From the NCBI GenBank assembly GCA_020628855.1, contig JAHDEL010000003.1, positions 49,578 to 113,577 on the forward strand: a stretch of 64,000 bases of DNA, given 5' to 3'. This document shows positions 40,766 through 44,214 of the stretch, piece after piece (the stretch's first letter is position 1; each line of letters opens with the position of its first letter). The stretch is from Saprospiraceae bacterium (GTDB lineage: Bacteria > Bacteroidota > Bacteroidia > Chitinophagales > Saprospiraceae). The position numbers were made by a program, and so were the translations under genes. The notes under the pieces were generated by a model. The model made no database searches. It saw only the letters and a program-made list of their open reading frames with translations, and was not told where the DNA came from.

Positions 40766-41227
40766 ATGAAAAAAGTATTATTCTTATTGACTTTTGTTTT
40801 TGCTGCTGGTATGGTATCTGCTCAAAAGTGCAATAAAAGCGCAAGCAAGAAATGTTGTGCAAAAAAGACACAGACAGCTGCTGTTCAGACTACTCCTGAA
40901 ACTCAGGTTGCATCTATGATTGCTGAAGCTGATGCTGCAGCTGCATTAGATGAGACTATTGAGAAGAAAGTATGTGAGACTTCGGGCAAAGTGTCTTATT
41001 CTCAAAAAAGTGTATGCTCTACATCAGGAAAAGTATCTTTCCAAGATGTGATGTATGATTCTGAAGCAAAGACTTTTGTAAATGTTTCACCAAGTGCTAC
41101 TGTGAAAGCTTCTACTGCAGAGGTTATTCCAGTTTCTGAGTCTGCTCCTGCTAAGCCGGCTGCATGCTCTAAGAGCAAAAAGTCTTGTGCTAAGACTTGC
41201 GCTAAGAAAAAAGCAATGGAACAATAA
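40766..41227 (+). CDS. Exported Cys/Lys-rich protein of unknown function
   Basis: The 153 residues begin with a signal peptide (MKKVLFLLTFVFAAGMVSAQ). The mature protein has eight cysteines in three clusters: KCNKSASKKCCAKK at the start, a twofold repeat CETSGKVSYSQ / CSTSGKVSFQD in the middle, and CSKSKKSCAKTCAKKK at the end. Ala- and Thr-rich linkers lie between. The Cys-Lys pattern could bind metal or be disulfide-bonded. No family is recognised. It is followed by a strong terminator and is monocistronic. Confidence 0.7.
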   Translation: MKKVLFLLTFVFAAGMVSAQKCNKSASKKCCAKKTQTAAVQTTPETQVASMIAEADAAAALDETIEKKVCETSGKVSYSQKSVCSTSGKVSFQDVMYDSEAKTFVNVSPSATVKASTAEVIPVSESAPAKPAACSKSKKSCAKTCAKKKAMEQ

Positions 41228-41249
41228 GAAGAATTAATCTTATATAAAG

Positions 41250-41280
41250 AAAGCCTGCGATACTTATCGTGGGCTTTTTT
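41250..41280. terminator. Bidirectional terminator
   Basis: AAAGCCTGCGATA (41250-41262) and TATCGTGGGCTTT (41265-41277) form a 13-pair stem with two G-U pairs and a T-run on the plus strand. It sits between the Cys/Lys-rich gene and the convergent response regulator. Confidence 0.85.
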
Positions 41281-41930
41281 TATTCCGCCAGTAGGTTGTT
41301 CTCCATGGCAACCCTGACAAGGCCCGCAGAATTTCTAACATTAAGCTTGTTTAATAAGCTACTCCTATGTGACTCTACAGTTTTCAATGAGATGTATAAC
41401 TTACTTGCAATCTCTTGAGTTGTATGTTCATCAATTATCAGAGCAAGTACTTCCTTTTCTCGTTTGGATACTTTCGGGAAAAACTTACTTTTTTGCTCTT
41501 TCTTTTCATTATTCTTCATCAAACCCTTCATGATGGTATGCTTCACTTCCTCACTGAAGTAACTTAAACCACTATCTACTGTTTTGATCGCCTTTATTAA
41601 TTCTTCTCTTCCTGTATTCTTAAGAATATATCCAGAAGCACCATTACTCAATATTTCTGTCACATAGCTTTCTTCATTGAACATTGAAATGGCAATAATC
41701 TTCACATGTTTTGCTGTGGTAGATAGCTTTTTGCATACTTCAATCCCGTTCATGCCTGGAAGGTTGACATCTAACAAAAGGATGTCTGCTTTTAATCTGA
41801 TTACTGCTTCCTCCACACTAGAGCCATCATAGCATCTTCCTACAACTTTCATATCTGGTTCCAGTCTTAGAATAGACTCTATGCCGTCTACAAACATTTT
41901 ATGGTCATCTGCGATAAGAATATTTATCAT
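41280..41930 (-). CDS. NarL/FixJ-family response regulator
   Basis: This two-component output protein has 216 residues. The receiver domain (1-about 120) has the acidic pair in IADDHKMF, the phospho-acceptor in ILLLDVNLPGMNG (Asp54 region), Ser/Thr in IIAISMFN, and a Lys in YILKNTG. The C-terminal LuxR-type helix-turn-helix (about 150-213) includes SKREKEVLALI and KLYISLKTVESHRSSLLNKL. The histidine kinase of the matching HisKA_3 type is encoded divergently at 42451-44214, so the two are a probable cognate pair separated by a 520-base intergenic region. Confidence 0.93.
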   Translation of the reverse strand: MINILIADDHKMFVDGIESILRLEPDMKVVGRCYDGSSVEEAVIRLKADILLLDVNLPGMNGIEVCKKLSTTAKHVKIIAISMFNEESYVTEILSNGASGYILKNTGREELIKAIKTVDSGLSYFSEEVKHTIMKGLMKNNEKKEQKSKFFPKVSKREKEVLALIIDEHTTQEIASKLYISLKTVESHRSSLLNKLNVRNSAGLVRVAMENNLLAE

Positions 41931-42142
41931 TGGGGAAGAGATTTGATTAATACAAAGGTAGTTGCTACAATCTTCAATTTTTGAGGGTAATCCCTGATAT
42001 TAGAAAATCGGTGTATTCAATGATGTCTGAAGCATGATAAATGAACACCTTTGTTATACAGACAAATTAAAAACGGAGTTACAGTCACTCTTCGATTTTG
42101 ATAAAAAATTGAATGTCAGGTGAAAGCATCAGACGAGACTAG

Positions 42143-42176
42143 TAACCTAGATTGGTTATGTGTAAATACTTACACA
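42143..42176 (+). ncRNA. Two consecutive hairpins in the regulator-kinase intergenic region (candidate structured RNA)
   Basis: TAACC-TAGATT-GGTTA (42143-42158) abuts TGTGTAA-ATAC-TTACACA (42159-42176), both with perfect stems. They are followed after 15 bases by AAGGAGGAG (42192-42200), which is exactly complementary to CTCCTCCTT at 42311-42319. The 41931-42450 interval has no long gene but ends in a strong plus-strand terminator, so something transcribed from within it must end there. An RNA regulator or a leader with a small ORF are the options. This is inference from structure only. Confidence 0.35.
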
Positions 42177-42263
42177 AAAAGATTTCGCTTTAAGGAGGAG
42201 CGTTTATTGATTTTGGTTCATTGTTTTTTGGTTTACGACATTATCTCGAAATAAAATCTAAAC

Positions 42264-42401
42264 ATGCTCATATTTAGCTTCACAGCTGACTTTTGTTTAA
42301 AAATAATACTCTCCTCCTTTTTTTACTTTTTGAAATCACATACTTGGATACTCATTGGATTGACTACTACATATAAGTCTAAAAAAGAAAAACCTTCATA
42401 A
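42264..42401 (+). CDS. Possible 45-residue hydrophobic small protein
   Basis: An ATG at 42264 opens 45 codons ending TAA at 42401, inside the left part of the terminator hairpin. The product starts MLIFSFTADFCLKIILSSFF, continues hydrophobic to about residue 35, and ends in a basic tail (YKSKKEKPS), like a single-span small membrane protein. No ribosome-binding site is obvious. AT-rich random sequence also yields such ORFs, so support is mainly the tight fit to the terminator. Confidence 0.3.
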   Translation: MLIFSFTADFCLKIILSSFFYFLKSHTWILIGLTTTYKSKKEKPS

Positions 42402-42419
42402 CGATGAAGGTTTTTTTTT
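42384..42419 (+). terminator. Intrinsic terminator upstream of the histidine kinase gene
   Basis: AAACCTTCAT (42390-42399) and ATGAAGGTTT (42404-42413) pair perfectly around AACG and are followed by a long T-run. It ends about 32 bases before the kinase ATG and so belongs to a transcript that starts within 41931-42380. Confidence 0.88.
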
Positions 42420-42450
42420 ATCTTTCTTTTGCATTCTCACATTATATCCA

Positions 42451-44214
42451 TTGCGATTACTTCATCAACATATTACTTTCTTTGCCTTCCTACTTTTTAT
42501 GAGTCTTTGGCAAAGTTCAAATCTTTGGGGACAATCATCTAAAGAGAACTTATATGATAGTCTTTTAGATCGATTAGAAAATGCTAGAGAGTCTAAAAAT
42601 TATAAAGATCTAGCAGAAACTTATTATGCCTTGGCTTCTTATGAAAGTAAGTTCAGTCGCTCAAAGAGAAATGTCATTGAGTTTTATAATAGATCACTTG
42701 AGTACTATAAAGTCATCAATGACCATACTTCGCAAGCTCAAATAAAGTCAGCGATTGCAGAAGAGTATTTTAGAAATAATATGCTTGAAGATGCAAAAGA
42801 ACTCTATAATGATTTACTTGATGATAGTCTCTATACAGAGGTAGTACACTTGCATAAACAACTGGGAATCATTGCAATTCAAGAAAATAATAACTCGGAG
42901 TATCAAAATCAGCTAGATGCAATTCTTGCGATGGACGCAAAAGATTCTTCTGCAATTGCACAGCTAACTTTATTGAAGCTCCATCATGCAATTTCTTATT
43001 CAGATACATTGACGGCAACCATTATCACTGAAGAATGTACATCTTGCCCTACAATTTTTGACACGAAAGACTCTATTGATTATTTGCTGCTGTTAGCCCA
43101 ACTTCAAATTATCAAAGGTGATATAGACAATGCGGATTACACACTCAAAAAACTGGAAAGAACCCTAGGGGAATTACCATTAAATTATGACAACTTACGC
43201 GTCCTGGCTTTAAGACAAACGTGCTATGAATCTAGGTTTCAATTTGACTCTTCATATTATTATGCCCAGAAAGTCATGCATCTCAAAGACAGTATGACGA
43301 ATATAGCTAGGATAGAGTCTATTGCAAATCTTGCTGAAAAGTATAAAGCAAAGGATAAAAGTACTGCAATAAGAATCCTGGAGCTGGAAAAAAAATATGA
43401 CAAACAAACAAATGATCAGCAACGTAGAGCCTTATATGTACTTGGGTTATTAGCCAGTGTTCTTCTACTTTCCATCTATTTTACCGTCAGATTCTATACA
43501 CAAAGACTAGAAGCCAATGAGATCATCTCAGTGCAAAACAGCGCTCTATCTAAGCAAAAAATACAAACACTCCAAGATGAATTAAACCTCAAAAGCATGC
43601 ACTCCATGATTGAAGGTCAAGAGAGTGAAAGAGAAAGAATTTCTAAAGATCTTCATGATAGCCTTGGTGGTCTTCTTTCCACTATCAAACTTCAACTTGA
43701 ACATATACCTATAGATGAAGAAAATACTCCGGCAATCAAAAAGCAAAACCAAGTACAAACACTTTTAGATTATGCTGTGAGAGAAGTCAGGAATATCTCA
43801 AGTAATTTACAGCCTACGTCATTGAAAAACCTTGGTTTAGTTGCAGCTCTAAAAGATTTATTCAATCGAGCTGAAGGTGCAGCTTACCCAGATATCGAAT
43901 TCCAGCATTATGATGTCCCTCAACTGAAAAACATGGTAGCTCTTTCTCTGTACAGAATTGTACAAGAATTACTAAATAATACAATTAAGCACGCACAGGC
44001 TGAAGAAATATTTATTCAATTAAGAAAAGAAGAAAATCAGCTGGTGCTTCAATATGAAGATGATGGTATCGGCTTTGATCTAGAATCTCTTAAAAAAAGT
44101 GGGATGGGTCTAGAAAACATTACAAGTAGAGTGAATTACTTGAATGGCGAGCTCAGTATTGATGCACGGGTGAATGAAGGTGTCTCCTATGTCATCCACA
44201 TTGATATACAGTAA
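42451..44214 (+). CDS. TPR-containing sensor histidine kinase (HisKA_3/NarX type)
   Basis: This membrane kinase of 587 residues has a signal peptide or anchor (about 1-28) and a periplasmic helical region with TPR-like repeats (about 30-320). A transmembrane helix follows at about 329-350 (LYVLGLLASVLLLSIYFTV), then a coiled linker. The HisKA_3 dimerisation domain contains ERERISKDLHDSLGG (phospho-His near 401), and the HATPase domain has RIVQELLNNTIKHAQA and DDGIGFDLESLKKSGMGL. The response regulator at 41280-41930 is the likely partner. Its stop overlaps the next gene's ATG as TAATG. Confidence 0.93.
   Translation: MRLLHQHITFFAFLLFMSLWQSSNLWGQSSKENLYDSLLDRLENARESKNYKDLAETYYALASYESKFSRSKRNVIEFYNRSLEYYKVINDHTSQAQIKSAIAEEYFRNNMLEDAKELYNDLLDDSLYTEVVHLHKQLGIIAIQENNNSEYQNQLDAILAMDAKDSSAIAQLTLLKLHHAISYSDTLTATIITEECTSCPTIFDTKDSIDYLLLLAQLQIIKGDIDNADYTLKKLERTLGELPLNYDNLRVLALRQTCYESRFQFDSSYYYAQKVMHLKDSMTNIARIESIANLAEKYKAKDKSTAIRILELEKKYDKQTNDQQRRALYVLGLLASVLLLSIYFTVRFYTQRLEANEIISVQNSALSKQKIQTLQDELNLKSMHSMIEGQESERERISKDLHDSLGGLLSTIKLQLEHIPIDEENTPAIKKQNQVQTLLDYAVREVRNISSNLQPTSLKNLGLVAALKDLFNRAEGAAYPDIEFQHYDVPQLKNMVALSLYRIVQELLNNTIKHAQAEEIFIQLRKEENQLVLQYEDDGIGFDLESLKKSGMGLENITSRVNYLNGELSIDARVNEGVSYVIHIDIQ

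Follow-up and report, generated by a model that had tools for sequence, protein, structure and literature searches.

GacA is a LuxR-type response regulator that controls the structured small RNAs RsmY and RsmZ. The agr regulator is of the LytTR type and is accompanied by the AgrB/AgrD peptide genes. The agr P2 and P3 promoters of Staphylococcus are described as divergent promoters under a response regulator, one serving the two-component genes and the other RNAIII, a regulatory RNA that is structured, shows long-distance interactions and carries the code for a small peptide as well (PMC5789755). In the SgrR-SgrS-SgrT system of enteric bacteria, as outlined in PMC4021124, the RNA adjoins its own regulator gene and is made up, in this order, of a small 5' ORF, a conserved pairing region and a terminator; some species have an SgrS without the ORF, and the terminator binds Hfq. 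GibS, an Hfq-less intergenic sRNA of Bacteroides, has a promoter of the Bacteroidota type, whose -7 consensus is TAnnTTTG, and is described as relatively unfolded (PMC7366714). MgrB, of the MgrB-PhoQ pair, is presented as a small membrane protein whose expression depends on its own two-component regulator (PMC2789325). Regulatory RNAs of Bacteroidota beyond the gut genera are hardly explored. The literature searched gave no published link of Saprospiraceae, an sRNA and a two-component system, and the titles and abstract openings of the Saprospiraceae noncoding-RNA literature mention no such RNA.

The locus described here lies in a 64,000-nt stretch (the window) of a 3.4 Mb Saprospiraceae genome. 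It is probably a stand-alone RNA gene, set between a regulator gene and a kinase gene and under the control of the LuxR-type response regulator encoded beside it. Its likeness to agr-RNAIII is one of layout only, an operator between divergent promoters for a two-component gene and an RNA. Unlike agr, the regulator is of the LuxR/GerE type (Response_reg plus GerE) and no peptide-signal genes were seen beside it; none of the 8 proteins scanned in the region with Pfam matched a LytTR or AgrB/AgrD-type family. Unlike RNAIII, the peptide ORF is missing in several Saprospiraceae genera and the RNA has no Rfam match. With SgrS the RNA shares a position beside a regulator gene, an optional 5' ORF and a conserved, predicted single strand before the terminator, but Hfq was not found here and the regulator is a two-component response regulator. 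It resembles RsmY and RsmZ as a structured RNA that would be under a LuxR-type response regulator, and differs from the Rsm RNAs in having an exposed motif other than a GGA repeat; CsrA/RsmA was not found in 17 genomes. Like GibS it is a Bacteroidota RNA with a TAnnTTTG-type promoter in a setting where Hfq was not found, whereas its strong structure and its tie to a regulator gene set it apart. In the ORF-bearing genera a small membrane protein would be controlled by its own two-component regulator, as MgrB is, but in the window's genus that ORF is not conserved. Because the regulator class differs, Hfq was not found and Rfam gave no match, the locus is not classed as a member of agr-RNAIII or SgrS. 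The locus is best read as a regulatory RNA under a response regulator, with a layout like that of RNAIII and SgrS.

Genomic context and distribution

The interval is flanked by the gene of a LuxR/NarL-type response regulator (receiver and GerE domains by Pfam; 41280..41930, minus strand), which is the constant neighbour of the RNA, and by the gene of a sensor histidine kinase (HisKA_3 and HATPase_c by Pfam; 42451..44214, plus strand, TTG start), in which a signal peptide and a membrane helix are visible by eye. This is the divergent regulator-kinase pair that the preliminary description had placed around the interval. On the far side of the regulator, 40766-41227 (plus strand) encodes a protein of 153 aa, rich in Ala, Ser, Lys and Cys, whose start resembles a signal peptide and for which Pfam gave no match; its gene and that of the regulator are convergent.

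A DNA search found the interval at 76% identity in the congener G002, the nearest of the relatives matched at the DNA level. Kinase and regulator orthologs also flank a similar stretch in G001, G003, G005 and G035. A covariance model of the RNA 3' end (R1), built from 6 sequences, was searched against 398 genomes of the family and matched 61 of them at E <= 0.001. Strong matches (E <= 2.2e-5) were present in 57 of the 398, nearly always as a single copy. Although the search was RNA-only, an ortholog of the regulator adjoins the strong match in 57/57 loci, G096 being counted on a partial regulator match. In addition, an exact 20-mer of the conserved motif, CATTGGGATTGACTATTGCA, was found in 37 stretches from named species genomes, 36 of them Saprospiraceae or other Bacteroidota records and one a Thermoplasmata record. 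By tblastn the regulator lies upstream in 33 of these stretches and the kinase only in 3; the Thermoplasmata stretch has neither.

Beyond the family the matches are few. At the order level 25 of 396 genomes matched, 19 strongly and one weakly (G311) inside the family and 5 weakly outside it, and these 5 have no regulator or kinase nearby. At the phylum level (E <= 1e-4) 6 of 395 genomes matched, namely the window's own genome and 5 weak ones, and the 3 weak ones examined have no regulator or kinase beside them. Neither gene adjoins the weak family loci L108-L112; a sixth weak family locus, L113, is truncated by the end of its contig and shows a kinase-like match. The weak loci L108-L112 and the examined matches beyond the family, none of them beside the regulator or kinase, were treated as bare terminators. 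The comparisons give good support to a new structured RNA family, which appears limited to Saprospiraceae so far as searched.

Operator and promoters

A two-part sequence, GGGTAATCCC-N15-GGTGTATTC (41985..42018), lies between two divergent promoters and is the presumed operator of the response regulator. The -7 box of the RNA gene, CACCTTTG (42046..42053, plus strand), stands at a fixed spacing from it; the -7 box towards the regulator gene, with the consensus TAnnTTTG, is TACCTTTG on the minus strand (41953..41960). In relatives the operator reads roughly GGGGnnnnCCCC, then TGGGTG. In 54/57 loci, as against 0/1140 shuffles, a -7 box comes 60-62 bp after the operator, the misses being G096, G214 and G352. 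The regulator-facing box was recognised by a permissive pattern in 33/57 loci, mostly 31-33 bp from the operator. Genome-wide, the operator-like pattern was not enriched over control in most of 9 genomes.

Transcription of the RNA would start at about 42058 and, as judged from the promoter-to-terminator span and the homologs, the RNA gene would extend over 42058..42419 (plus strand), giving a predicted transcript of about 360 nt; among relatives the length would be about 220-740 nt. The preliminary description had guessed 200-350 nt, which is close, and its RNA unit ending at the terminator gains a promoter with operator and an adjoining regulator in the counts above. Control of the RNA family by the response regulator is strongly suggested, the regulator apparently turning the RNA gene on. 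We infer that the RNA is transcribed, that the regulator binds the operator and in which direction control runs.

RNA structure

No Rfam 15 family was found at the gathering threshold in the whole 64,000-nt window. The best sub-threshold score was 32.9 bits (Phe_leader, for which 55 are needed), and such matches are centred on the terminator. The folding energy of the plus strand is -115.6 kcal/mol, compared with -98.2 +/- 6.1 for shuffles (z -2.85, 0/100). The decisive evidence for structure beyond chance is comparative, a long-range stem and a terminator that are both kept by compensatory change.

The long-range stem pairs a 5' arm, AAGGAGGAG (42192..42200, plus strand), with a 3' arm, CTCCTCCTT (42311..42319, plus strand), an exact pairing already reported in the preliminary description. 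Its sequence varies from species to species while the pairing is kept. When arms were swapped between genera, the best contiguous helix had a mean of -14.4 kcal/mol compared with -18.8 for the native arms (57 loci; Wilcoxon p = 5.6e-9). The native pair beats all 8 swaps in 35/57 loci; the remaining 22/57 do not beat every swapped arm. The contiguous-helix score was adopted because swapping of whole duplexes was noisy (native above all 6 swaps in 21/57; means -39.6 and -33.9). Within genus g33, 12 distinct arm pairs registered by hand are 96.7% paired, and two-sided change occurs at 10/10 pairs (0/500 shuffles). Close to the stem there is an element, GGTTTACG (42230..42237, plus strand), that was recognised by eye and recurs near the long stem in relatives.

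The intrinsic terminator (42384..42419, plus strand) was called by terminator prediction; across 41001-43500 the number of terminator-like sites is 4, with 1.2 expected. Two-sided change occurs at 11/12 pairs of its hairpin (135 cells vs 41 shuffled, 0/500). Its apical part, CAUAACGAUG, is conserved, the apex staying CA[T/A]AA[A/C/T]G[A/T]TG while the stem covaries. We judge such an apex unusual for a plain terminator.

Two adjacent small hairpins (42142..42175, plus strand) are present as had been noted, GTAACC/GGTTAT at 42142-42159 with a closing G-U pair and GTGTAA/TTACAC at 42160-42175. By eye the window and G002 alone show them, and the sequence of this region differs in other relatives. 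The features that had been proposed for a conservation check divide: conservation extends to the long stem and the terminator but not to the 45-codon ORF, and for the two small hairpins it reaches no further than G002.

Small membrane ORFs

In 17/57 loci, mostly in g3, g70, g105 and g108, the promoter is soon followed by a hydrophobic ORF of 25-140 codons with an ATG start, compared with 2.1% in shuffles. Inspection by hand added further small membrane ORFs in g3, g62, g70 and g93. Where the ORF can be compared, dN is less than dS in 11/12 pairs, for example 0.10 and 0.58 in G005/G263; the exception, G197/G108, has few changes, and two of the dS values are saturated. In g70 (L098, L094, L096, L100, L102) the start of the ORF, ATGAAG..GAGATTTTGG, can pair by eye with CCCAAAATCTCAACTTCAT about 100 nt downstream, and this pairing might mask translation of the small membrane ORF.

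The position of the ORF right after the promoter, its dN below dS and the precedent of MgrB, presented in PMC2789325 as a 47-aa membrane peptide activated by a response regulator, would all suit a transcript that serves mainly as the mRNA for a small membrane protein feeding back on the kinase, in the way that MgrB acts on PhoQ, the structured 3' part being its UTR. Such an account is unlikely, since the RNA core persists in genera where the ATG and hydrophobicity criterion finds no small ORF (g18, g26, g75, g87 and g131; g93 also has none by this criterion), and in g33, where only 1/13 loci has a small hydrophobic ORF. In addition, the RNA is present where no kinase follows, and the frame lacks conservation within the window's own genus.

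The window itself has two candidate frames. A 44-codon GTG ORF (42120..42254, plus strand) occupies the position of the small membrane protein of other genera. It is open in G000 and G002, but the alignment has frame-changing gaps and dN is 0.49 with a dS of 0.64, so that coding is doubtful. A 45-codon ORF at 42264-42401, with its stop codon in the terminator loop, is present as the preliminary description stated. That description had proposed either a small RNA or a small membrane protein acting with the two-component system. The first part survives as a conserved structured RNA unit, but the product of the 45-codon ORF was rejected, as the G002 copy stops after 10 codons and carries many frameshifting gaps. 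On the alignments, coding in the window's genus is not convincing. By the small-ORF comparisons it is the RNA that stays constant, the protein being optional.

The conserved single strand

Between the long stem and the terminator lies a motif predicted to be single-stranded, ACTCATTGGATTGACTACTACA in the window (42350..42371, plus strand) and ACTCATTGGGATTGACTATTGCA in its family form, with near-invariant columns in 57 loci. The clades g1 (to which the window belongs), g18 and g70 have changes of their own. A sigma-54-like reading of the motif (GG-N10-GC) was rejected, since by eye neither the window nor G001 retains the GC.

For this strand base pairing with RNA is judged the likeliest mode of action, and protein binding the chief alternative. 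A search of 12 genomes for a long conserved trans complement (20-mer, <=3 mismatches) brought none to light, with 10 non-self near matches compared with 6 for the reversed control. A 14-mer with <=2 mismatches gave 35 matches in its own genome and 17 for the reversed control. With 1 mismatch allowed, the 14-mer complement had 77 non-self sites in 40 genomes, as against 27 control matches by our tally; no recurrent start-site target was present among the 77. Of these sites 46 are antisense to ORFs, the motif's strand reading as codons, and because most sites are of this kind the surplus gives no evidence of targets.

Several individual sites were recorded. In G134 and G212, two species of one genus, a tRNA-Cys gene is directly followed by GCAATAGTCAATCC, an exact complement of 14 nt of the motif, with a terminator-like hairpin 3' of it. 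The sites are in L266 (G134), around 730-818, where the tRNA-Cys was called by ARAGORN, and in L264 (G212), at 59 on the minus strand, where it was read by eye at the edge of the locus. This stretch is a possible target or sponge of the RNA. A site of 23 nt at 806 in L245 (G065) has about 3 mismatches to the motif complement and a duplex energy of -31.7 kcal/mol; 63 nt downstream of it comes an ORF whose start resembles a signal peptide. L237 (G090) has a tandem-like array of units of about 140-160 bp between two genes, each unit holding a near match to the motif complement.

The RNA might instead sequester a protein, as the Rsm RNAs do under GacA. A LuxR-type regulator adjoining a structured RNA would be in keeping with this, as would the conserved terminator apex and a motif with no clear nucleic-acid partner. 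But model searches did not find Hfq in 20 genomes (control rings, 5/14) or CsrA in 17 (control rings, 3/14), which at that sensitivity argues against those two partners, and no candidate protein was identified. Sequestration in place of base pairing is unlikely.

Relation to the kinase gene

The kinase was detected in 47/57 loci, some of the remaining loci being cut at contig ends. A 5' leader or attenuator of the kinase gene, with the long stem and the terminator as alternative folds tuning read-through, would fit the window, where the kinase start comes 32 nt after the end of the terminator. Read-through is also possible in some loci by the promoter count, the exact TAnnTTTG between terminator and kinase being found in 11/46 loci (46 of the 47 kinase-bearing ones were counted) against 9.8% in the control. 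However, the gene next downstream of the RNA is not the kinase but an unrelated convergent gene in several loci, fumarylacetoacetate-hydrolase-like by eye in L135, L150 and L166 and of other kinds in L159 and L169. In L138 a gene that is alpha/beta-hydrolase-like by eye, at +185 to +1144 in the oriented locus with the motif at 2882, intervenes between RNA and kinase. The spacing between RNA and kinase also varies up to about 300 nt. The leader explanation was rejected as very improbable. Since the RNA is retained where the kinase is not downstream, it travels with the regulator. The link to the two-component system that had been proposed thus holds for the regulator, but not for the kinase.

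Chance hairpins in an AT-rich spacer, for which only the two small hairpins confined to the window and G002 could speak, are contradicted by the covariation and the family-wide conservation and can be dismissed.

Proposed mechanism and significance

For the RNA gene under response-regulator control the following sequence of events is proposed. The kinase would phosphorylate the regulator, which would then bind the two-part operator between the two divergent promoters and control both its own gene and the RNA gene. The RNA would fold into the long-range stem with the terminator at its end, exposing between them the near-invariant single strand of about 22 nt as its working part. This strand would most likely pair with other RNAs and need no Hfq to do so. 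The 5' half of the RNA would, in several other genera, also code for a small single-helix membrane protein and so make the RNA dual-function there. More tentatively, the system may be a Bacteroidota counterpart of agr-RNAIII that evolved independently, in which the main output of the regulator is an Hfq-independent dual-function RNA with an effector strand of about 22 nt and an optional membrane peptide, gained in some genera and lost in others.

The locus brings together a promoter, a presumed regulator and the short near-invariant strand of a structured RNA family. A single small locus could therefore serve to test how sRNAs act in Bacteroidota without detected Hfq, and the genera with and without the peptide ORF would offer a natural comparison for the origin of dual-function RNAs.
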